Of a stretch of DNA of 64,000 nt, positions 1 to 24,731 are shown one piece after another. This stretch comes from Anthracocystis setariae (Eukaryota; Basidiomycota; Ustilaginomycetes; Ustilaginales; Ustilaginaceae), in assembly GCA_928724745.1 (NCBI GenBank), contig CAKMXJ010000037.1, positions 1 to 64,000 of the forward strand. Reading direction: 5' to 3'. The translations under genes were made by a program, and so were the position numbers. The number at the start of each line of letters is the position of its first letter. Position 1 is the first letter of the stretch. Below the pieces are notes generated by a model, which was not told where the DNA came from, did not search any database, and was given only the letters and a program-made list of their open reading frames with translations.

Positions 1-7
1 ACCCTAA
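1..7. repeat. Telomeric repeat remnant at the chromosome end
   Basis: The window opens with ACCCTAA, one unit of the CCCTAA telomere strand, directly joined to subtelomeric block A. C-rich repeat on the plus strand at the left edge fits a left chromosome end from which the long terminal array was trimmed or not assembled. Similar short tracts recur inward at 822, 3570, 4389, 4440, 5074 and 8509. Confidence 0.7.
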
Positions 8-821
8 GTTGGCTCCTAGTTGTACATAGTTCCTGAAGTTCCCATGGACTTCATCTGAGGTTTTTTCATCCTCTTCACTGAGGGTTTTTCCTCACAATGA
101 AGTACCTTTCTCTTGATCAAAGTACCTTCCAACCTAGACTGAAGTAGGATCAACCTCTGTGTACTGGCCCTTGAACCCTAGGCAGACCTCATCCAAGTAT
201 GTTGGAACCTGAGTCCAACCAGGTTCAAGTACATTGCCAAGCCATGGTTGAAGATAGGCAGAAGTACCATCAACCTCAGTTGAAGTGCAGGAAGTACACT
301 TCAAGCTTGGTCCAAACTATACTTGGCACATAGTTCAACTTCAAGTCACCCAGCTTGGACTCCATCAGAACACCCCAGCCAGCATCCAAGTTTGAACTTC
401 AACCCTCAGTCAACCTACCCTCAACTTCGGTCAACCCCACCCTCAACTTCGGTCAACCCTACTTGGACCCCATCTTCATACCTGGGCTGGCCGAACTTGG
501 ACCTAGGTTCAAGGTACCTTGGTGTCAACTTTGAACCCCTGTAGCACCGCAACCACTTGCAATTTCACCACTCTTGACATGTGTACAGCCTCTCTATAGG
601 TTCTTCTAGCTGTTCCACACATTGCCTCCACCCTTCCTCCTCTTTGAAAAAAAAATATTCTTCCCCGACAGAATCCTGGCGGCAACTTCAAATGCCCGTA
701 TCTCCGTCAATAGAGTAAACTTTACCCCAAACTCAACGGCTTCTGGCAGCTCTCAGCCAGCTCTACAACTCTCATTAGTACAGATTTGATGGTGACTTTG
801 ATGGGTCCAAGGGAACACCTT
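8..821 (+). repeat. Subtelomeric block A: 5'-truncated copy, 3' region only
   Basis: This ~815-bp stretch is nearly identical to 1210-2023 and 2501-3310. It is the non-coding 3' region that follows the OTU reading frame in the neighbouring copies. It begins abruptly after ACCCTAA and ends in CCTTGTAACCC. Inside are an imperfect 20-bp direct duplication near 415-458, an A-run followed by TTCTTCCCC near 648-666, and a conserved end module (CTACAACTCTCATTAGTACA near 764-783). The 73-codon open frame at 323-544 has no ATG and is identical in all copies only because the DNA is, so I do not call it a gene. Confidence 0.8.
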
Positions 822-856
822 GTAACCCTAACCCCCCTTAACCCTAAACCTAACCC
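822..856. repeat. Interstitial degenerate telomeric repeat between blocks A and B
   Basis: About 35 bp of CCCTAA-like sequence with slips (a CCCCCC run and an AAACC variant). It sits exactly where copy C instead carries the catalytic box of the OTU domain. It joins the CCTTGT end of block A to a point inside the OTU reading frame of block B. Confidence 0.85.
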
Positions 857-1184
857 TTCAGAGGTGGTAAAGTACCTTGAACTTCACCACAACATGGTGG
901 AAGCCATCCTGGCTACCAAGGAAGTACCCAAACACCCCTTCATATCCAAGGGGGAACCTCTGACAGTCAGAACCTACCTTTCTAAGATGGCTAGGCATGG
1001 TACATGGGGGGATGATGCTACTTTAAGTGCAGCAGTCTCCATCTTCAAGCTCAGTTTGGTGATCATCAACCCAGACAGATCCTACTTTGAGGTCAACAAA
1101 GTACCTGTTCCTACCCAGTGGCATGCCCTCTACTACACAGGCAACCACTACGAGCTTGTACTCAAGTTCAACTCAGAGGCATAG
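857..1184 (+). pseudogene. OTU cysteine protease fragment lacking the catalytic Cys box (block B)
   Basis: This is the C-terminal part of an OTU-family protease (deubiquitinase-like fold), about 108 codons up to the stop at 1182-1184. The core GTWGDD, the hydrophobic strands after it and the C-terminal GNHYELV (candidate catalytic His) are present. The Asp-Gly-Asn-Cys box seen in block C is missing, because the copy starts 3' of it. An ATG in the preceding block (786) reads through the telomeric tract into this frame, giving a chimeric 132-codon frame. I see no reason to think it makes a working enzyme. It is a truncated copy, not a decayed one: no stops or frameshifts. Confidence 0.75.
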
Positions 1185-2031
1185 GTACTTGGACCGAAGT
1201 TTGTATATAGTTGGCTCCTAGTTGTACATAGTTCCTGAAGTTCCCATGGACTTCATCTGAGGTTTTTTCATCCTCTTCACTGAGGGTTTTTCCTCACAAT
1301 GAAGTACCTTTCTCTTGATCAAAGTACCTTCCAACCTAGACTGAAGTAGGATCAACCTCTGTGTACTGGCCCTTGAACCCTAGGCAGACCTCATCCAAGT
1401 ATGTTGGAACCTGAGTCCAACCAGGTTCAAGTACATTGCCAAGCCATGGTTGAAGATAGGCAGAAGTACCATCAACCTCAGTTGAAGTGCAAGAAGTACA
1501 CTTCAAGCTTGGTCCAAACTATACTTGGCACATAGTTCAACTTCAAGTCACCCAGCTTGGACTCCATCAGAACACCCCAGCCAGCATCCAAGTTTGAACT
1601 TCAACCCTCAGTCAACCTACCCTCAACTTCGGTCAACCCCACCCTCAACTTCGGTCAACCCTACTTGGACCCCATCTTCATACCTGGGCTGGCCGAACTT
1701 GGACCTAGGTTCAAGGTACCTTGGTGTCAACTTTGAACCCCTGTAGCACCGCAACCACTTGCAATTTCACCACTCTTGACATGTGTACAGCCTCTCTATA
1801 GGTTCTTCTAGCTGTTCCACACATTGCCTCCACCCTTCCTCCTCTTTGAAAAAAAAATATTCTTCCCCGACAGAATCCTGGCGGCAACTTCAAATGCCCG
1901 TATCTCCGTCAATAGAGTAAACTTTACCCCAAACTCAACGGCTTCTGGCAGCTCTCAGCCAGCTCTACAACTCTCATTAGTACAGATTTGATGGTGACTT
2001 TGATGGGTCCAAGGGAACACCTTGTAACCCT
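857..2031 (+). repeat. Subtelomeric block B: OTU 3' end plus 3' region
   Basis: Block B is the OTU fragment (857-1184) followed by the same ~840-bp 3' region as block A, ending CCTTGTAACCCT at 2020-2031. The join to block C has a single telomeric repeat. The only differences from the other copies that I noticed are isolated, for example GCAAGAAG near 1490 against GCAGGAAG near 287 and 2780. Near-identity points to recent copying or gene conversion. Confidence 0.8.
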
Positions 2032-2475
2032 CAAGGTACAGACAACTACAGGATCACATCTGGCTACATCAAGGGAGATGGCAACTGCCAGTTCAGGGTA
2101 CTATCCAAGATCATCTATGGTACCCAAAGTAGCCATCAAAGGGTACGTTCAGAGGTGGTAAAGTACCTTGAACTTCACCACAACATGGTGGAAGCCATCC
2201 TGGCTACCAAGGAAGTACCCAAACACCCCTTCATATCCAAGGGGGAACCTCTGACAGTCAGAACCTACCTTTCTAAGATGGCTAGGCATGGTACATGGGG
2301 GGATGATGCTACTTTAAGTGCAGCAGTCTCCATCTTCAAGCTCAGTTTGGTGATCATCAACCCAGACAGATCCTACTTTGAGGTCAACAAAGTACCTGTT
2401 CCTACCCAGTGGCATGCCCTCTACTACACAGGCAACCACTACGAGCTTGTACTCAAGTTCAACTCAGAGGCATAG
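2032..2475 (+). pseudogene. OTU cysteine protease fragment with catalytic box (block C)
   Basis: The frame stays open from 1981 through 2475 without an in-frame ATG, and copy-specific sequence starts at 2032. It encodes a nearly complete OTU domain: GDGNCQFR (catalytic Asp and Cys, codons around 2074-2097), GTWGDD and the C-terminal NHYELV with a candidate catalytic His. It is homologous to the C-terminal ~130 residues of the protein at 5202-7565 but clearly diverged. The N-terminal part of the parent gene is absent, so this is a 5'-truncated copy. A non-ATG start or fusion transcript could in principle express it. This is the longest of the truncated OTU copies. Confidence 0.75.
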
Positions 2476-3318
2476 GTACTTGGACCGAAGTTTGTATATA
2501 GTTGGCTCCTAGTTGTACATAGTTCCTGAAGTTCCCATGGACTTCATCTGAGGTTTTTTCATCCTCTTCACTGAGGGTTTTTCCTCACAATGAAGTACCT
2601 TTCTCTTGATCAAAGTACCTTCCAACCTAGACTGAAGTAGGATCAACCTCTGTGTACTGGCCCTTGAACCCTAGGCAGACCTCATCCAAGTATGTTGGAA
2701 CCTGAGTCCAACCAGGTTCAAGTACATTGCCAAGCCATGGTTGAAGATAGGCAGAAGTACCATCAACCTCAGTTGAAGTGCAGGAAGTACACTTCAAGCT
2801 TGGTCCAAACTATACTTGGCACATAGTTCAACTTCAAGTCACCCAGCTTGGACTCCATCAGAACACCCCAGCCAGCATCCAAGTTTGAACTTCAACCCTC
2901 AGTCAACCTACCCTCAACTTCGGTCAACCCCACCCTCAACTTCGGTCAACCCTACTTGGACCCCATCTTCATACCTGGGCTGGCCGAACTTGGACCTAGG
3001 TTCAAGGTACCTTGGTGTCAACTTTGAACCCCTGTAGCACCGCAACCACTTGCAATTTCACCACTCTTGACATGTGTACAGCCTCTCTATAGGTTCTTCT
3101 AGCTGTTCCACACATTGCCTCCACCCTTCCTCCTCTTTGAAAAAAAAATATTCTTCCCCGACAGAATCCTGGCGGCAACTTCAAATGCCCGTATCTCCGT
3201 CAATAGAGTAAACTTTACCCCAAACTCAACGGCTTCTGGCAGCTCTCAGCCAGCTCTACAACTCTCATTAGTACAGATTTGATGGTGACTTTGATGGGTC
3301 CAAGGGAACACCTTGTAA
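2032..3318 (+). repeat. Subtelomeric block C: longer OTU 3' copy plus 3' region
   Basis: Block C matches block B base for base over the shared part but extends ~120 bp further 5' into the OTU frame. It ends CCTTGTAA at 3311-3318, where the next block begins after only a partial telomeric unit. Measured start to start at GTTGGCTCC (8, 1210, 2501), spacing is 1202 and 1291 bp. The 89-bp difference is the extra OTU sequence in C less the telomeric insert in B. Confidence 0.8.
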
Positions 3319-3569
3319 CTCCTACGCAGGGAACATCACTGTATAGCACCCCTCTACACATCCCATTAAAGCGTCAGCACCATCAGAGGTGATCAAAAAC
3401 TTTTTTTTCTTCCCCAAGAGAATCTGGCTGCGGACCTTTGACGGTCTGTATCTCGGTGACCACGGAACATGGTTCCGTCAGACTTTGCATACATATACCT
3501 CAGACCTATATCTACAACTCCCATTAGTACAGATTCTTGATCAAAGTGCTCTCCGGCGGGGAGGACCTT
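3319..3569 (+). repeat. Subtelomeric block D: diverged 3' end of the same family
   Basis: The right two-thirds of this block align by eye to the 3' end of blocks A-C: a T-run with CTTCCCCAAGAGAATC, a GTATCTCGGT segment, then CTACAACTCCCATTAGTACA and a terminal CCTTGTAACCC. It is diverged and 5'-truncated relative to them, so it is an older or different subfamily member. A small perfect hairpin (ACGGAAC/GTTCCGT) lies at 3462-3478. No coding potential is evident. Confidence 0.6.
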
Positions 3570-3587
3570 GTAACCCTAACCCTAACC
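3570..3587. repeat. Interstitial telomeric repeat
   Basis: GTAACCCTAACCCTAACC follows the CCTT end of block D. About two and a half telomere units. Confidence 0.9.
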
Positions 3588-3677
3588 GCTTCAAAAAAGC
3601 TCGCTTGCCAAGGCACGCAGCTACCATCCTCATCTTCCAAACACGCCGTTCTCAGTGCTCTTTGGCGACACCGGATG

Positions 3678-3882
3678 TGTTTGATCAACGTCATCAACAC
3701 AATCCGACACCGCAAAAAAGCGAGGATTTTGGACGTTCTTGAACATGTTAGATTGCGTTGAGTAACACGTTCTGCATTGCAAAAAAAGCGGAAATTTTCC
3801 GACATTTCCAGATTTGTTAGATTGTGCCAATTAACACAATCTGTCATTGCAAAAAAGCGAAAAAAATTTTCCGACACGGAAA
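3678..3882. repeat. Three tandem ~68-bp repeats
   Basis: Copies start at about 3678, 3746 and 3815, each beginning TGTT(A/T)GAT, containing a GCAAAAAAGCG core and ending near GA(T/C)TTTCCGAC-type sequence. They are clearly diverged, so the expansion is old. A short GGGAAGCTCGGGAAGCTCGG iteration follows near 3915-3935. Confidence 0.6.
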
Positions 3883-3968
3883 CTCGGGAAATTACCTCGG
3901 GGAGCTCGGAATGCGTCGGGAAGCTCGGGAAGCTCGGGATCCTCCATGAGTCAAACTTGACTCCCCAT

Positions 3969-4274
3969 CTGCGGCCCGTACGCTGCAGCTACCGCACCAA
4001 GCTTTTGCATGCCAAAGTGTACCCATATAGTGCACACACTGACCCCAAGCAGCCCCCAAAGTTTGGCTTGCTCACCGTCGCCACCAGCCAACATGTACGC
4101 GCAGACGTACATTTACGTCAACTACGCCCGCTACGGTGCAGCCACTGTGCCTGGTGTTTGTGTTCCCAAGTCTGTCTATATACTGCACAAACTGACATAA
4201 AAAAACCCCCAGGGTTTTGCTTCCTCATCGACGCCCCCAGCCAAAGTGTACGCGTGGACCTACGTTTACGTAAT
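3969..4274. repeat. Two diverged tandem 153-bp repeats, in frame
   Basis: Copies are 3969-4121 and 4122-4274. Read in the same frame, both give 51 codons starting LRP(V/L)RCS and containing a (A/T)(H/Q)TD-KxPP core and a V(R)xDxxLR end, without stops. Length divisible by three and conserved frame suggest that the stretch once encoded a repeat protein. This is inference from the pattern only. Confidence 0.6.
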
Positions 4275-4388
4275 TTTGCAAAAAAGTATGCAAACAATTT
4301 CGCCAAAATTTTCTGATCACAATCTACAAGATGAGAGCTTTCCAACGGTACCAAATGATCACCATAACTCACAAAGGGTCCCCCCTAT

Positions 4389-4410
4389 GTAACCCTAACC
4401 CTAACCCTAA
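4389..4410. repeat. Interstitial telomeric repeat
   Basis: Three and a half CCCTAA units after the TAT end of block E, followed directly by an A-run. Confidence 0.9.
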
Positions 4411-4455
4411 AAAAAAATAACTCACAAGGGAAACCGAGTGTAACCCTAACCCTAA
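4411..4455 (+). repeat. Tiny block F: 3' end of the block E family plus telomeric repeat
   Basis: About 28 bp (AAAAATAACTCACAAGGG...GAGTG) resembling only the last bases of block E, then GTAACCCTAACCCTAA at 4440-4455. It reads as an extreme 5' truncation of a block E copy whose 3' end is preserved. Confidence 0.5.
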
Positions 4456-5073
4456 GAACCTGAGTCCAACCAGGTTCAAGTACATTGCCAAGCCATGGTT
4501 GAAGATAGGCAGAAGTACCATCAACCTCGGCTGAAGTGCAGGAAGTACACTTCAAGCTCGATCCAAACTATACTTGGCACATAGTTCAACTTCAAGTCAC
4601 CCAGCTTGGACTCCATCAGAACACCCCAGCCAGCATCCAAGTTTGAACTTCAACCCTCAGTCAACCTACCCTCAACTTCGGTCAACCCCACCCTGAACTT
4701 TGGTCAACCCTACTTGGACCCCATCTTCAAACCTGGGTTGACCGAACTTGGACCTAGGTTCAAGGTACCTTGGTGTCAACTTTGAACCCCTGCAGCACCG
4801 CAACCACTTGCAATTTCACCACTCTTAACATATGTACAGCCTCTCTATAGGTTCTTCTAGCTGTTCCACACATTGCCTCCACCCTTCCTCTGCTTTGAAA
4901 AAAAAATATTCTTCCCCGAGAGAATCCTGGCTGGCAACTTCAAATGCCCGTATCTCCGTCAATAGGTTAAACTTTAACCCAAACTCAACGGCTTCTGGCA
5001 GCTCTCAGCCAGCTCTACAACTCTCATTAGTACAGATTTGATGATGAATTTCATGGTCGCTGAGGAGAGCCTT
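4456..5073 (+). repeat. Subtelomeric block G: 5'-truncated, diverged copy of the A-C unit
   Basis: Corresponds to about 205-820 of block A, with scattered substitutions (for example CTCGGCTGAAG for CTCAGTTGAAG). It starts in the middle of the 3' region immediately after telomeric repeat and ends GAGAGCCTTGTAACCC. It is more diverged from A-C than they are from each other, as expected for an older, more proximal copy. Confidence 0.8.
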
Positions 5074-5097
5074 GTAACCCTAACCCTAACCTAACCC
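5074..5097. repeat. Interstitial telomeric repeat
   Basis: GTAACCCTAACCCTAACC followed by one shortened unit. It lies only ~105 bp upstream of the ATG of the OTU gene, so telomeric repeat is effectively part of its 5' flank. Confidence 0.9.
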
Positions 5098-5201
5098 AAA
5101 CGACCGACCAACATCAACTCACTTTGCGCCAGACACAGCACAGACGCCCAAGCAATCCTCTCTTCTTTTCAGCACCTCTCTATTCCCTTGAGAGCGTCAC
5201 A

Positions 5202-7565
5202 ATGGACCATCCATTGCCCATTAGGATGGACCATCAAGTCACCAAAGGATTCATGGCTCCACGTGACCTCGATGCGTGGAACATCAGCCTGTACCCCAAA
5301 GACTTACTCCAGGTGTTCAAGCCAATGTCACCTGTTCAGTTGGTCAGTCATGCTCCCACCATCAAGGACCATCCCACATTCAAGGACTGGGTCAGCGCTG
5401 GCCAGTGCGTCTTCAACATCAAGATCCACCCAAAGTTCAAGATCCCGCTCCTCAACGTCCTCATCTCCGCCGACATCATCATGCTGGGCTCCGACTATCC
5501 TGAAGCTCTGATCCGGGGCAATCAGGTGATCACCTGCAGCGTCTTCATCAACTGTCTGCAGAAGGCGGGTGTTGATACTGTCAGAGTCCAAGGCTACGGC
5601 ATGAAGATGTGGGTCAACTACCCGTATGACGGTCCAGACCTTGGCAACCCTCAACACCCAATGTCGGACCTCAATACCTTTGACCTGGCATGTAACTGGC
5701 CCAGCCAGAACATCTGGCTTGTGACCAACCGACATGACAGCATCCGTGGCCTCCAGCAGTATCCCATCCTCACACCGGTGGGCCAGGGCTTTGGCGGTGT
5801 CCAGATGCCAGTCCAGTATGGTGGTGAGACATATCAGGTGAAGATCTATCCACGCATCGTCCACCAGATCAAGGCACAGGCTGGCAACCACATGCTCAAC
5901 AAGCCAAAGTCAATCTACATCTGCAAGAAGCGGAGAGCGACCCTGCTTGGCCATCTGGCGCACATGGAGAAGCTATCGAGCCAACAGCTTGGTGGCATAC
6001 GGGTTGAGGCTACAATCACCAGCCCAACCCTCAGCCTTGCTGTATGCAACATCACGGCTACTCCTGTGCTCAATATAACCCAGTACATGACGCCACGGGT
6101 TGAGGCAATGGAGCCGTACAAGATACGGAGCATCAAGATCAACAAGGAGGACTACATCAAGAACCTGCGTGATCTGCTGGCCAAAGCAGATGAGCAACAG
6201 GTGTTCTCTGGCAATAACAGCCGCTCTCCTCACCCTGACTCCCAGCAGATCATCATTGACCTCTTCAATGCGCTGGGTTGGCATACTGGACGCTTTGAGC
6301 CAACACGCTGGGATCATCCAGCTGCCTGGTGGCTCCACTCTCAAGGAGAAGCACCAGTGATCACCAGCAATGATGTGGAGATGGAAACACAGGCTGAGGA
6401 GCGCCGTCAGCCATCCAAGGCTCTCCTGAAGCGCCGTCTGCGCACCATGGATGCTCTGCGTAGCTTCTTTGGCCAGATCAAAGGTCAGACACCGTGTCCC
6501 AAGTGTCAGAAGCCAGCGCCAGCACTGTACAACCAAGGTGGGCGCCGTCAGTTCCGCCTGCAGTGCACTGGCTGCAAGGCGCGCCTCAATCAAGAGCAGG
6601 CTCGAGAGTACTTTGGCCAGCTGCTTGATCAAGGCCGTCTGACGGTAGACCTGGGTCCAGAGCCAGTGCCAGAGCCAGAGGCAGCAGCAATGGAGGCAGT
6701 CACTACAGAGGAGGAGGATGTCAACATGCCTGACCTTGGCAGCAACTCTGATTCCTCAGCTGACCAGGCTCCTGTCCATCCTCTGCATGGTCCACGCCGT
6801 CAGAGCAACCGTCTGCGTAGGCGTCTCTCTCCTGCAGCAGCAGCAGCACCAACAGTGGAGCTGCACACGCATGGCACAGATGCGGTGGTGCTCCTCCCAG
6901 CAGCGTCGCCAGCCCCTGCTGTGGTTAGGAGCAGCAGCGCAGAGACCAGCGCTAGCATTCAGGCCATCTTGGATGAGCTTGATGCAGAGCTGGTCTCCAG
7001 CCCAGACCGCAGATGCAGGGAGACACCCAACCCCTTTGTGGCTGAGCTGGTGGTATCACCAGCAGTCACCCTGCCCTCCCGTCAGCCACTGCAGAGCAAG
7101 CCCAGCCTCCATGCTGTTGACAGAGTCACTGTACTGGCTGCTACGCTTTGCAACCTGTATGGTCTGAAGGTCAGCAACATCATTGGCAGGGATGGCAACT
7201 GCATGTTCAGGGCCATGGCATACCACCTGACAGGCAACCAAGACCAGCATATGATGGTCAGGACAAAAGCAATCCACTGGCTGCAGCGGAATCCTGACAT
7301 CCTGCTGGCATTTGCGGCCCAGGGCGATGGGCATCTCTCCGCTGCCACATACCTGGCTAACATGGCCAAGCCAGGAACATGGGGTGACGAGATCATGCTC
7401 ATGGCCATTGCGCAGGCATTCAGCATCTCAATCATGGTCTACTCTGGCATAGACCCTCAGACCGGTGACAGCCATGGCACCGTCTACCCTCACAATGCAG
7501 AGGGACCCCACTATGGCCTGTTTCACCTGGCCAAGTCCCAGCATTATGAGCTCCTGTTCCCCTGA
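5202..7565 (+). CDS. Subtelomeric OTU-domain cysteine protease with novel N-terminal region (787 aa)
   Basis: The start ATG at 5202 has a good context (CACAATGG); an in-frame extension to 5124 begins with TTG only. Residues ~1-380 match no family I can name. Residues 432-458 form a C-x2-C-x19-C-x2-C motif, a likely zinc ribbon. Residues ~480-640 are acidic, Pro/Ala/Ser-rich linker with a basic RRQSNRLRRR patch. Residues ~645-787 are an OTU domain: RDGNCMFR with catalytic Asp664 and Cys667, GTWGDE at 725-730, and SQHYELL near the end with candidate catalytic His781. OTU proteases cleave ubiquitin-type linkages; some transposons (Helitron/Helentron, Zisupton-like) also carry OTU domains. Neighbours are telomeric repeat on both sides and truncated relatives in blocks B and C. 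I infer a mobile or telomere-borne gene rather than a host housekeeping deubiquitinase. The OTU call is firm; the function is open. Confidence 0.85.
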   Translation: MDHPLPIRMDHQVTKGFMAPRDLDAWNISLYPKDLLQVFKPMSPVQLVSHAPTIKDHPTFKDWVSAGQCVFNIKIHPKFKIPLLNVLISADIIMLGSDYPEALIRGNQVITCSVFINCLQKAGVDTVRVQGYGMKMWVNYPYDGPDLGNPQHPMSDLNTFDLACNWPSQNIWLVTNRHDSIRGLQQYPILTPVGQGFGGVQMPVQYGGETYQVKIYPRIVHQIKAQAGNHMLNKPKSIYICKKRRATLLGHLAHMEKLSSQQLGGIRVEATITSPTLSLAVCNITATPVLNITQYMTPRVEAMEPYKIRSIKINKEDYIKNLRDLLAKADEQQVFSGNNSRSPHPDSQQIIIDLFNALGWHTGRFEPTRWDHPAAWWLHSQGEAPVITSNDVEMETQAEERRQPSKALLKRRLRTMDALRSFFGQIKGQTPCPKCQKPAPALYNQGGRRQFRLQCTGCKARLNQEQAREYFGQLLDQGRLTVDLGPEPVPEPEAAAMEAVTTEEEDVNMPDLGSNSDSSADQAPVHPLHGPRRQSNRLRRRLSPAAAAAPTVELHTHGTDAVVLLPAASPAPAVVRSSSAETSASIQAILDELDAELVSSPDRRCRETPNPFVAELVVSPAVTLPSRQPLQSKPSLHAVDRVTVLAATLCNLYGLKVSNIIGRDGNCMFRAMAYHLTGNQDQHMMVRTKAIHWLQRNPDILLAFAAQGDGHLSAATYLANMAKPGTWGDEIMLMAIAQAFSISIMVYSGIDPQTGDSHGTVYPHNAEGPHYGLFHLAKSQHYELLFP

Positions 7566-8508
7566 TCTGTTCCAAGTTCCAAGTTCTGTGTTCCGTATGT
7601 AAATAGTTGTGGGGTCTAGGGCACTTTTTTTCCCACTGGGTTTTTTCCCCTAGACCATGTAAATAGTCGCTCCAATACATAATAGTATACACGTCTACAC
7701 CTTCCTGTCTGTGGTGTTTGGTGGCCCTACCGGTGACTGACCAACAGAGGCAGACAGACCTGCAAAGTGGTTGAATCATCTTTAGAAGGTGTGAGAGCCT
7801 CACCGCACATTAAACAGCAGTGTCTCAATATACAAGTTCAGGTCGGCCCTACCTGACCAGGGTAGGGCTAGGGCTAGGTTCAGGTCCCAAAAAATTTTAG
7901 CCCTAGGGCCTGGAAGACAACTTGCTTAGATAGTGTCTGATATGGCTCCTGCATGCCAGAGAACCCCAGCGCACATCAAAAAATGGCCACTTATTATGCC
8001 AGAAGAGTCCAACCCCTACGGGGGTAGGGCCTGGCCGACACGTTTCACCCTACCCAGCTGCAACCGCAACCGGTACAGCATTGACCTTGCAGATACAGCC
8101 ATTTGGCACCATTTGACATGTATGTCATTAAGAGATGCAGTCCATCCAAGCCACTTTTTTGGTCCACAAAATGCTCCCATGGTCCCCCCTTTGGATTTGG
8201 CCGTTTTTCAACTTCTGCTGCCCCTACACCCTCAGTATGCATTCCCCATCCCTGCTTTCTTGCATACATTCCTATTTCACCATTACGCACCTTCCTGCGG
8301 CATCAGATCCCTCAAAATCCAAAAAAAGTTCTCAGACCCTACCTCGACCCGGGGTCCCGACCCTACTTTCGGTGACCCGCCCTGACCTGTTTTTATAGTC
8401 AACTTGCGTAGGGCCACTTAATGACTTCAGCCAAACTCACCTAGCACTATCCAGTAATGCACAGAGAAGGGGGTGTTATGTCTTCAGCCCTACCACAAGA
8501 TCCCCTTG
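7566..8508 (+). other. 3' flank of the OTU gene, end of block H
   Basis: No supported gene. It begins with T-runs (7627-7656) suitable for a 3' UTR. Short G/C-rich words related to GTAGGGC/GCCCTAC recur on both strands near 7855-7910, 8020-8055 and 8330-8390. The block ends CCCCTTGT and runs into telomeric repeat, the same terminal word as blocks A, B, D and G although the rest differs. Confidence 0.5.
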
Positions 8509-8521
8509 TAACCCTAACCCA
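8509..8521. repeat. Interstitial telomeric repeat capping a broken Gag gene
   Basis: GTAACCCTAACCC abuts, with no spacer, the interrupted Gag reading frame that begins at 8522 (minus strand). This is the most proximal telomeric tract. It marks a former chromosome end. Confidence 0.85.
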
Positions 8522-8657
8522 CATCGTCTTCGGTGACGTGCGTTCGAACTGACGCTGGAGAGCTGTCGTCAAACCTCGTCGGAAAAGGTGGAGCTTGAGG
8601 TGTTCGTTGCTCATGCCGGCGCGCTCTTCGAGGGTCCTGAAAGCCTCGACATACTTG

Positions 8658-8870
8658 TGTCATAACCAAGTTAAGGTTAAGGTTCTGACGTGCAGTGAGC
8701 TTGAGCTAAATGAGTGATCGATGTCATTTCGATGGAGGCAGTGTGAGTGAGACGAGATTTACAGGGAAAGCGGAACCAGCGAAAATAGGAGTCAGCCCGA
8801 TACGGCGGATCGGGCTTGGATCGGCGATCTGGGAAGCGTAAGCGTTATAGGGAGGGAACGCCTCATGACA
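8658..8870 (-). repeat. 3' LTR of the gag-only element
   Basis: 213 bp, TGTCAT...ATGACA, no difference seen from 10133-10345. It lies on the 3' side of the minus-strand element. It contains TTAAGGTTAAGGTT near one end. Confidence 0.92.
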
Positions 8871-8881
8871 TCCCCCCCGCA
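8871..8881 (-). other. Polypurine tract
   Basis: On the minus strand, GCGGGGGGGA sits immediately upstream of the 3' LTR, the expected place for the plus-strand primer of reverse transcription. Confidence 0.7.
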
Positions 8882-8998
8882 AAGAAAGAGAGCACTCGGA
8901 CGAGACAAGGAGTGCGAAAAGGCCGGAAATCGGAAAGACGGATCTCGGAGACGTGGAAATCGGGAAAAAAGGAACTCGGAAGAACGGAAACCGGGAAA

Positions 8999-9991
8999 TT
9001 AAGGAGGAGGTTTGTGCACAGACCTCCAAGGTTCCTGCAAAGCACGGAGTTCTCGCAGGAAACCGGAAATCGAGGAAACTTCCTGGTACCGTGCGAGAAG
9101 CTTGAGTGAATCGGGAAGTCCAAGCCAGATATCATGGATCGTGTCCCGATCGTCACGTGAGTGGTACGCGGCGCGTAACAGTGACAATTTCGCGTAAAAG
9201 TAGCACGTGACATCCTCCGTGTGAGGCTGCCACTTCCGCAGTTCGGCCGTCCGACGGGCGACCGAGATATCCGTTCCGAAAGCGTCGTTGAGCATAATTC
9301 GCCAGATCGGCCAAGATCGGCTGAGATCTCGCCGATCACGATCGGTGATCGAGCTGTACCAGTGCTGAGCCGTCTTTGTGAGGCAGAGAGGCAGCTGACT
9401 AAGCATTACAGCGACGAAGGAAGGCTCGTGATTCTGTGAATCCAGCAGAGACTCGACTCGTGCGAGAAAGAACTGGACGGCGTCGCTGGAACCGTCAAAG
9501 CGACCGATGTCGTCCGGAGACAGGCGGATTCGGTGGTGGGACGGCTTCTGATTGGTGGGGCTGACAGCTGCGGAAGCCGGAAGGTTAGAGTTTTCGGCGT
9601 CATTAGAGTTTGCAGCGTTCTTGGACAGCCTGGAAACGTCAGAAGTAAGGTTTTCGGCTTTGACGTTGGCGTTCTTGGGCGCAGAAGCTTCATTTGACGT
9701 CACTAGAAGCTTCAGAAGCCGAGAGAGTGTGTCATTCGTGACTTGTTGCGCAAGTTGAAGCCTGTCAAGAGACGTTGTGACAGCTTGAAGCGAGTCAGCT
9801 AGCGCATCAAAACGCTGGTTTTGCTGTTTTTGCACGTCAAGTAGCTGCGTGACGACGTCCGGGGCCGGTTCTGACAGCTGTCCAGGATCGTCTGGCATGT
9901 TGGTTTCGGAATCCGGAGGCGGAAGAACTGTTTCCGGAGGCGGAAGAACTGTTTCCGGAGGCGTAAGGCGTTGATTGCGGCTTCGGGTCAT
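8999..9991 (-). CDS. Gag of the nested LTR element (330 aa)
   Basis: A complete frame from ATG 9991 to the stop at 8999. Residues ~1-40 are Pro-rich with a PPPETVL-type duplication. Residues ~45-100 are a heptad-rich, probably coiled-coil segment. A linker rich in Ser/Asn/Ala follows, then a Gag capsid-like domain from ~155 (IGRFDGSSDAVQFFLARVESL, TAQHWYSSI, FGTD, LRKWQ, YFYAKLSLLRAAY) as in Retrotrans_gag proteins. No CCHC zinc knuckle is visible; it ends with KPPP, followed by 128 bp of non-coding DNA before the LTR. An intact frame in a gag-only element suggests that selection or recency keeps the capsid functional. Confidence 0.85.
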   Translation of the reverse strand: MTRSRNQRLTPPETVLPPPETVLPPPDSETNMPDDPGQLSEPAPDVVTQLLDVQKQQNQRFDALADSLQAVTTSLDRLQLAQQVTNDTLSRLLKLLVTSNEASAPKNANVKAENLTSDVSRLSKNAANSNDAENSNLPASAAVSPTNQKPSHHRIRLSPDDIGRFDGSSDAVQFFLARVESLLDSQNHEPSFVAVMLSQLPLCLTKTAQHWYSSITDRDRRDLSRSWPIWRIMLNDAFGTDISVARRTAELRKWQPHTEDVTCYFYAKLSLLRAAYHSRDDRDTIHDIWLGLPDSLKLLARYQEVSSISGFLRELRALQEPWRSVHKPPP

Positions 9992-23453: not shown

Positions 23454-24666
23454 CAAGCGAGATCGCATGCGATGCGCTTCCTTTCCACCATTTGCTCTCA
23501 AGCACTCTGCCACCTCCTCCGCAAGTCCATCTGATCAATACTAGACTCGTTGCCTACAGTACATCGCTCCGTGGCCCCTGGCCTCTCGATCAAATACTTA
23601 AATACTAGCACGCCTTTCTTCACATGACTGGCAAGTAGATGGCTCCCCACATAAACTAGACCCGTAGTGCCCTCATCTAGCCCGACACGCGTGCGGCTCC
23701 GAGCCTACCAGCCCTCTGCATTGTCACAGTTAAATGGGGTTCATGGTGAGAAACATGTTTCGTCCTTTCTTCACACTAAAGATGACTTGCGAGCAAAATG
23801 TCCTCGGCAAAAGTGAACCGCGATCGAAAGCGAGATGCCGTGCTTAAGCGGCGGCGAGCTCGTATGACTGTCCAAGGTTGCTCGGATGCATCGCTCAATT
23901 AACGTCAGCAGCGACTTCGATGCATGCAAGTCGAAGGGCGGCGGACTCAAGAGCGGCGAATCGGGCCGGCAAGGAAATGCCAGGCCGATTAGTTTCCTAG
24001 CAAGCCAAGCACCCGACATCGTCTGAGTAGATGCTTGTTCGAAAAGCCAAAGCCAAATCCAAACCTCGGTTCGTGGGGACTCTTTCGAGCACTCGCCGCT
24101 TCATAAGGCGAACCTGCATTCTAATCCCCTGCCGGTAAGCAACAAGGTCGGTGGCGGAGCATAGGATGGCATCTAAGAAAAGGCGATAGCTTCGGGCCTG
24201 CCGATTTAGAAAGGCTTGCCGATTCAGAGCTGTGGCGATGCCTCTGGGACGGGATGGTTAGCGGTGCAGCTCGCAACCTTGTTTTTCTTCTTTTGACTCT
24301 TTTGCGTCGATTCACTTTTGCGCGAGCAGACGTGCACCACCGACTATCCGTGCCTCCGCAAATTCGACAACTCGGCTGAATCACACAAGCGAGCCTTTCG
24401 GGCCATAGAACGCGCTGTGGAATCCGTCTCGAACAACAAGTTCTTCCGGGTTCGGCGGTTTTTTTTATTTTTTTGGGACGCCCTTCTGTTCTGTTTCTTC
24501 CTAAGCACAGTACCCCGTCCGGTAGTGAACTCACACGCCCCGCTTTTGGTCGTACTATACAGTACTCGGATATAACAAAATGATTGCAAGGGTGCGTGTG
24601 TAGAATTGGCGATGCGAGGAGGTGGTTTGCAGAGTGAAAAAACGTCGCGGGTCGCATCTTGGGTTT

Positions 24667-24667
<1 letters not shown>

Positions 24668-24731
<64 letters not shown>
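24668..24731. repeat. Poly-T run of 64 bases
   Basis: An uninterrupted T homopolymer, the longest in the window. No target duplication or retroposed sequence is evident beside it. Exact length is likely unreliable in any assembly. Confidence 0.9.

Follow-up and report, generated by a model that had tools for sequence, protein, structure and literature searches.

Stacked blocks with one fixed end at the chromosome ends of Anthracocystis setariae, and a relaxase-like protein that may attach them

The chromosome ends of A. setariae consist of stacked mobile blocks, each attached by one fixed end and capped by telomere repeats at the other, variable end. The blocks are copies of several chromosome-end element families. 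They keep a single orientation, carry an AA of their own at the fixed end, occasionally adjoin non-telomeric partners and can be very short. We put at roughly 45% the probability that a relaxase adds them to chromosome 3' ends by one-ended transfer and that telomerase seals the product. The joining enzyme would be the element's own protein, a putative tyrosine nuclease like the Rep_trans initiators and filamentous-phage gpII. Slightly more tentative is the wider proposal that these are a class of eukaryotic mobile elements, of rolling-circle type, in which a Rep_trans/gpII-like tyrosine relaxase rather than a reverse transcriptase (RT) would pass single DNA strands to the 3'-OH of a chromosome end, with telomerase finishing the product.

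The window, that is, the whole 64,000-nucleotide stretch analysed, contains eight block termini within positions 1-8521 (Table 1). Six of them (823, 3571, 4390, 4441, 5075 and 8509) are followed by AACCCTAACC, while 2025 is followed by AACCCT only and 3316 by AACTCC. The original prediction of telomeric sequence at the joints is correct for the six termini but not for block C, which ends at 3316 without telomere repeats. Copies of one unit do begin at different points (about 7, 858, 2032 and 4456), as had been proposed. The common 3' end claimed for them is exact in blocks A, B and C, but block G has diverged (GAGGAGAGCCTTGT versus AGGGAACACCTTGT). Longer copies of the r0 element in block H are present on C19, C36 and C18. 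The sequence beyond the innermost joint contains a gag-like ORF.

Table 1. Blocks, joints and coding features at the outer end of the window
Feature	Position	Strand	Basis or remark
Block A, r1-type 3' fragment, terminus AGGGAACACCTTGT, AA at 824-825	7..823	+	Repeat families, segment map, joint
Joint, telomere-like tract AACCCTAACCCCCCTTAACCCTAAACCTAACCCT	824..857	+	
Block B, r1-type, starts inside OTU region, terminus of block A	858..2025	+	Microhomology 1 at start 858
OTU part of block B, r1 residues 557-664	858-1181	+	
Joint, single AACCCT	2026..2031	+	
Block C, r1-type, longer OTU part, terminus of block A, then AACTCC without telomere repeats	2032..3316	+	
OTU part of block C, r1 residues 518-664	2032-2472	+	
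Block D, non-coding, AA of block C end plus inner partner, terminus GGGGAGGACCTTGT	3317..3571	+	
Joint, telomere tract	3572..3587	+	
Block E, no protein-family match, terminus CCTATGT	3588..4390	+	
Joint, telomere tract	4391..4410	+	
Block F, mini-copy of ~31 nt, terminus GAGTGT	4411..4441	+	
Joint, telomere tract	4442..4455	+	
Block G, diverged r1-type 3' fragment, terminus GAGGAGAGCCTTGT	4456..5075	+	
Joint, telomere tract	5076..5097	+	
Block H, r0 element with complete gene, terminus CAAGATCCCCTTGT	5098..8509	+	
ORF, 787 aa: relaxase-like N-domain, Zn ribbon, low-confidence linker, OTU domain	5202..7565	+	
Relaxase-like N-domain, residues 17-304	5250..6113	+	Fold alignments, conservation
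OTU domain, residues 664-754	7191..7463	+	PF02338, E 1.2e-11
Innermost joint AACCCTAACCC	8510..8520	+	

The end-block layout is real and extends beyond this region. Five copies of TTGTAACCCT are present in the 64-kb window, where 0.04 would be expected, and CCTTGTAACCCTAA occurs 175 times in the genome against none for the reversed control. Among 100 of these 175 places, every + strand copy sits no more than 20 kb from a left contig end and every - strand copy is on the right side, there within 21 kb of the end on contigs of known length (a set that leaves aside C3, C10 and C11). For 16 termini, no copy was found on the other strand. A census of 213,770 bases, mostly contig ends, took in six terminus classes and yielded 150 joints, at which 26 different terminal 14-mers were counted; some of these are near variants or extend into the telomere tract. 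For a single terminus, the number of inner contexts reached 14 and that of outer starts 15. Complete segments of at most 35 nt made up 14 of 125, and the lowest two values, 3 and 11 nt, are skewed by the position at which the tract was divided; copies sharing the fixed end go down to about 7 to 24 nt, with extreme cases of ~7 nt on C17 and ~3-4 nt on C5. Identical 5' ends in all copies would have refuted end attachment, but they are not observed: the 74 DNA matches to the 1.28-kb unit in the genome begin at many points. A constant attached end, a variable telomere-capped end and a single orientation towards the chromosome end, all parts of the original prediction, are supported.

The fixed end itself is defined by two bases. 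AA directly follows the terminus in 183 of 183 copies (19 termini), yet 45 of them, representing 35 distinct joints, have no recognisable telomere tract after it. Among these 35, 17 read AAG and 16 read AAC; AAG is incompatible with a leftover of the telomere, whereas one or two telomeric bases could be hidden in AAC. The third base was A in only one of the 45. Of 29 distinct non-telomeric joints, 19 have an inner partner whose longer copy is without the AA, which shows that AA derives from the element and CCC does not. In 10 of the 29, AA overlaps the target, against 0.067 expected; for one of these the longer copy contains a telomere tract, which leaves 9 of 28. The element's own end is therefore only AA, and a CCCUAA tail is not needed, because AA is constant where the tract is absent. 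The earlier idea that an RNA carrying CCCUAA anneals to the telomeric G-tail is not supported, and we reject it on the tract-free joints and the element-borne AA. The termini share no hairpin or RNA fold (mean z 0.07 for 21 terminus types versus -0.59 for the upstream control), and window positions 1-9000 gave no Rfam match at E up to 1, hence no match to a 3'-terminal hammerhead ribozyme.

Where the outer ends adjoin telomere repeats, microhomology is in excess, with a mean of 2.24 nt versus 0.36 over 49 distinct joints (from 178 tract ends, 75 with a longer copy, reduced to 49 under stricter rules). The telomerase RBD was found at one locus in the genome.

Coding direction does not follow the fixed end. 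The coding strand had been expected to point inward always; this is so in the window, but in the genome 25 loci point inward and 29 outward. These 54 loci are 63 protein matches after nine fragments were merged into neighbours, with the length of C27 assumed and contigs without known length sided by coordinate. In the 827-aa family (r5) the fixed end lies on the promoter side of the gene, with the ATG 317 nt away, and the fixed-end rule still holds, so that coding direction does not matter and a sense-RNA origin is not supported as a general rule. The element genes have pN/pS values of 0.06 to 0.28, and the protein is apparently under purifying selection. Used as queries for homologs, the window protein and alignment A1 recovered the identical 8 proteins, and the 944-aa family recovered 10. 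ORFs near r5 and r6 that resembled 2-oxoglutarate dioxygenases by eye gave no Pfam match, and the assignment was dropped.

The N-domain carries a conserved set, D, D, K-x-Y-x-[RK]-x-x-H and R-x-E, across 23 aligned element proteins (P0004 and P0005, which are N-terminally short, were left out). D161, K214, Y216, H221, R267 and E269 are present in all 23, D22 and D24 in 22 with one gap, and R/K218 in 20. Judged from sequence, this set resembles the Rep_trans/gpII relaxase active site, for which the published motifs are D, RxD, YxKxxE and RxE. By order and spacing, the D-D-E metal residues would be D22/D24, D161 and E269, and the catalytic tyrosine Y216; the spacing is 137-55-51 versus 141-54-46 in IKe gpII. 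When the letters of 57 conserved columns were shuffled 200,000 times, a relaxed form of the pattern arose 19 times and the strict form never. For two structure models, the best structural alignments were Rep_trans proteins, as weak fold matches; Foldseek returned no E below 0.001 for either, and the viral library gave nothing convincing.

Homology searches did not extend this likeness. The full Rep_trans motifs (RxD, T/SxY/ExG, YxKxxE, W/LxRxE) are not all present: the R of RxD is absent, E is His, W/L is Gly, and motif II was not identified. The PF02486 HMM had no match in the genome at E up to 10, whereas a Bacillus subtilis control did match, and none among the members of A1 and A4. Profile comparison with gpII (PF05144) gave hhalign P values of 0.12 to 0.33 with small alignments (0.19 for P0010 alone), which are not significant. 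Apart from OTU, no Pfam family scored above chance, and the N-domain had no convincing PHROG, NCBIfam or PDB-sequence match. There is no H-x-H among the invariant columns, and no helicase match in the proteins scanned.

In the proposed relaxase mechanism, the fixed end (C-strand ...AA, mostly ...TGTAA; G-strand 5'-TTACA...) would be joined to a chromosome 3' end, the acceptor usually being the telomeric G-tail and sometimes a non-telomeric end. The element protein would cut in front of TT(ACA), remain attached to the 5' end and pass the single strand on to the free 3'-OH of the chromosome in a one-ended, rolling-circle-like transfer. The free variable end would then receive a new telomere, most likely by telomerase, and whole stacks could be multiplied by recombination between ends. 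The model predicts a nick in front of TT(ACA) in DNA with GGGTTACAAGG.

A less likely alternative is reverse transcription in trans, as in HeT-A or MoTeR2: an RNA ending in ...TGTAA would be copied onto chromosome 3' ends through TT/AA pairing by the RT of an unseen retroelement or by telomerase, early stops would produce the variable 5' ends, and the relaxase-like protein would have another role. The layout equals that of telomeric retroelements in the parts of the reports consulted (PMC7367193, PMC12857005, PMC6431247), the 14 short segments are expected from early stops, and the AA overlap with the target also fits. The genome is rich in RT genes; a search with the RVT_1 model produced 206 candidates, of which 150 were scored. 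On C32 the scored matches begin at 407,540 and thus miss the window blocks, which bears out the earlier remark that no RT is visible there. The contig ends examined hold only two scored matches in full (C25:4166 and 8720, both read on the opposite strand, their frames resembling LTR retrotransposons by eye) plus one in part (C9:56488), and no RT belonging to the end elements, or full-length RT partner, was found among those scored. Anchored on its promoter side, r5 would need an antisense RNA. Exactly two A's instead of a tail of variable length, termini without shared RNA structure and a relaxase-like conservation left unexplained also count against this alternative.

We consider it improbable that active transposition is lacking altogether, with old blocks spread by break-induced copying and unequal exchange between telomere tracts, and 5' ends made variable by erosion and telomerase healing. 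Recombination does act, as the original prediction allowed: C31 repeats the block array of the window, and C3, C18 and C7 carry single-period arrays. The 5' joints look like healing, and such rearrangements are documented in MoTeR arrays in the consulted part of PMC7367193. Recombination alone leaves unexplained why unlike termini all end in AA, and against it stand the 35 distinct non-telomeric joints that keep the exact AA end, the fixed-end copies of about 7 to 24 nt and genes that look selected.

Several known systems share parts of this picture. HeT-A of Drosophila is a chromosome-end element without its own RT that is 5'-truncated, encodes a gag-like protein and is joined through oligo(A). 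The blocks resemble it in the lack of their own RT, in location and in 5' truncation, but differ in the relaxase-like protein, in an AA that is exact in all 183 copies instead of variable oligo(A), and in the presence of telomerase. MoTeR1/MoTeR2 of Magnaporthe and FoTeR of Fusarium are telomeric non-LTR retrotransposons and, in the consulted parts of PMC7367193 and PMC12857005, occupy telomeres in head-to-tail order, separated by telomere tracts, with telomere repeats at the 3' end and 5'-truncated copies healed with short seeds. Constant-end telomere repeats and 5' truncation recur here, though 45 of 183 termini lack a recognisable tract. MoTeR1 and FoTeR have their own RT and MoTeR2 shares its ends with an RT bearer, whereas no RT partner was seen here among the 150 scored of 206 candidates. 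The blocks differ further in having more than one protein family, all of a relaxase-like kind, and in joining non-telomeric partners at times. Terminons, Athena and EN-deficient Penelope-like elements are similar in chromosome-end attachment, 5' truncation by telomeric repeats and arrays with captured genes (PMC6431247). They encode an RT and end in a hammerhead ribozyme plus telomeric repeats, where for our blocks no RT was seen (RVT_1, 150 of 206 scored), no Rfam match was obtained (window 1-9000) and the end is only AA.

The enzyme has its closest parallels elsewhere. Rep_trans (PF02486) and gpII (PF05144) share the D, D, Y, R-x-E order, the spacing and most residues, with a weak fold match; three motif residues differ, sequence homology was not detected, and the present proteins are fused to OTU and belong to a eukaryotic chromosome-end element. 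Helitrons and Helentrons share the rolling-circle idea, and an OTU-like domain occurs in animal and some fungal Helentrons (PMC6431247, in part), but they have an HUH Rep and a helicase, unlike the proteins described here. In the literature searched, this enzyme type was not found in eukaryotes, except for the HUH type of Helitrons and the rolling-circle Rep proteins that rotifer Terminons carry as accessory genes, whose type is not named in the consulted part of PMC6431247. Telomere-bound mobile elements are explained there by reverse transcription; if a relaxase is used, the transfer of single DNA strands would be a further way for chromosome ends to grow. Even with a wrong guess at the enzyme, any model in which blocks lacking an RT make up fungal chromosome ends has to accommodate the element-borne AA, the non-telomeric partners and the reversed r5 family.

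The genome containing the window comprises 21.47 Mb in 36 contigs, the window being the left end of contig C32. Further distinct bases were fetched, chiefly from contig ends (201,770), and together with the first 12,000 bases of the window they made up a working set of 213,770 bases. Nineteen termini, the fixed inner ends of the chromosome-end blocks, were searched irrespective of the downstream bases, and all 183 copies had AA directly after the terminus. A telomere repeat followed in 138 copies and none in 45, where the third base was G in 25, C in 18, A in 1 and T in 1. Counted as distinct joints, 109 were telomeric and 35 were other (third base G in 17, C in 16, A and T in one each). One or two telomeric bases may be hidden at AAC joints; at AAG joints this is impossible. 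Non-telomeric chromosome ends, presumably eroded, are used as well. The first partner base was G or C in 33 of the 35 distinct non-telomeric joints (p ~4e-8), a bias without explanation.

At 29 distinct non-telomeric joints, the longer copy of the inner partner carried AA at the site in 10 cases and other bases in 19; the latter make the AA the element's own, and the telomeric CCC is part of the target. The 10 cases compare with a background of 0.067 (p ~1e-5; one of them precedes a telomere tract), and the element's AA is apparently favoured by TT at the 3' end of the target. Since only AA is element-borne and CCC comes from the target, the RNA with a CCCUAA end that the original prediction had annealing to the telomeric G-tail is unneeded. 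Opposite-strand copies of 16 termini were not found in the fetched ends and window start. Across all fetched ends, the C-strand carried 139 copies of CTTGTAA and the G-strand 14.

According to PMC5714925, a relaxase cuts one strand, remains on the 5' end and can transfer it to a free 3'-OH. The G-strand fixed end was 5'-TTACA in 15 of the 19 termini, those with a TGT ending. The partner of this end is the 3' end of the chromosome, and the strand so transferred would offer telomerase a natural primer in its own 3' end. We infer that transfer by the element's own relaxase-like protein would cover the fixed end, the common AA, the varied partners, either coding direction and the absence of a reverse transcriptase. 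No transfer intermediate was observed.

Reverse transcription in trans accounts well for the ends and for very short copies, the smallest of which span ~3-8 nt as judged by eye (C5 near 911,200; C17:4159-4165), but leaves the r5 family, the constant pair of A's and the conserved relaxase-like site unexplained. Genes of families r0 to r3 point toward the fixed end; the r5 gene runs the opposite way, with its ATG 317 nt from the fixed end (C8, the right end of C32, and C9), and shorter r5 copies retain just this side. With 25 of 54 loci coding inward and 29 outward, the coding strand does not always point inward, contrary to the original claim. Recombination, the rival named at the outset, also acts by multiplying the stacks: the window array is repeated on C31, and arrays of a single period occur on three other contigs (see table), amplified through either exchange or rolling circles. 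C31 (29,070 bases) is a near-copy of the entire window stack plus one additional truncated unit, and is either a second chromosome end or the same end assembled in an alternative way.

Tandem arrays of a single period
Contig	Coordinates	Unit (bases)	End of every unit
C3	1800762-1810192	~446	CCTTGTAA
C18	17-9469	~1186	CCTTGTAA
C7	1-2828	~453	CCTTGTAA

A census using six terminus classes gave 150 joints with 26 distinct terminal 14-mers, part of which are near variants; the four commonest termini had 14, 12, 11 and 10 different inner contexts. Complete segments (n = 125) had a median of 450 nt and a maximum of 5566 nt, and 14 were ≤35 nt, the shortest lengths being skewed by how tracts were called. 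The variable 5' ends originally noted were borne out, with at least six distinct starts for the window's r0 element and many for a 1.28-kb unit with 74 matches genome-wide. These matches end at or near the unit's 3' end, some having diverged over the last 20-30 nt. Outer starts adjoin telomere repeats. Where a longer copy exists elsewhere (49 distinct cases), the tract overlapped the lost sequence by a mean of 2.24 nt, against 0.36 at random positions (≥2 nt in 65% versus 7%); because the final telomere-like base was taken as the joint, roughly double the 0.36 would be a fairer null, and the overlap still exceeds this. MoTeR truncations heal from similar short seeds (PMC7367193). The telomerase RBD was found at one locus in the genome.

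Within window positions 1-8521, AACCCTAACC directly follows six of eight termini, AACCCT one and AACTCC one, and a single unit is repeated with starts at ~7, 858, 2032 and 4456. CCTTGTAACCCTAA was counted 175 times in the genome (with positions listed for 100) versus 0 for the reversed control. In the fetched ends AACCCTAAC lay on the '+' strand in 85/85 cases at left ends and on the '-' strand in 84/84 at right ends, which by itself shows merely the constant direction of telomere tracts. A gag-like ORF (8999-9991, '-' strand), whose Retrotrans_gag match at E 1e-4 falls short of the curated cut-off, lies immediately inside the innermost joint, and a nearly pure T run of 68 bases occupies 24664-24731.

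The protein family had 63 genome matches, all within ~40 kb of a contig end on contigs of known length, and Pfam placed an OTU domain in 9 of 13 aligned members. pN/pS was 0.16-0.28 for r0 (four copies) and 0.06-0.16 for r5 (three copies), few differences underlying both. The window's 944-aa terminal gene had 10 relatives, five by name from Ustilago trichophora, Ustilago sp. UG-2017a or Kalmanozyma brasiliensis, which points to a smut fungus as the most likely host. Known systems include telomeric retrotransposons (PMC7367193, PMC12857005), Terminons with accessory Rep proteins (PMC6431247) and bacterial Rep_trans enzymes (PMC5714925); full-text searches, which covered few subscription papers and took in PMC8381367, PMC10035886, PMC4797284 and PMC12730594, turned up no comparable element. 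A 133-bp tandem repeat, placed close to the 5' side in the longest copies of r0 (L037:2964-3263, upstream of r0 on C19), recalls the tandem repeats upstream of FoTeRs described in PMC12857005. ORFs adjoining r5 (L044:4301-5293, C8 right end) and r6 (L045:3-1151, C22 left end) resemble 2-oxoglutarate/TET-JBP-type dioxygenases by eye; Pfam gave no match for either. The C8 ORF is interrupted by a telomere tract, inside the anchored segment of r5. OrsD-type domains occur ahead of telomere-linked helicases, and an OrsD match at the curated cut-off (E 8e-6) was seen in an ORF at the right end of C9 (L041:2673-3518).
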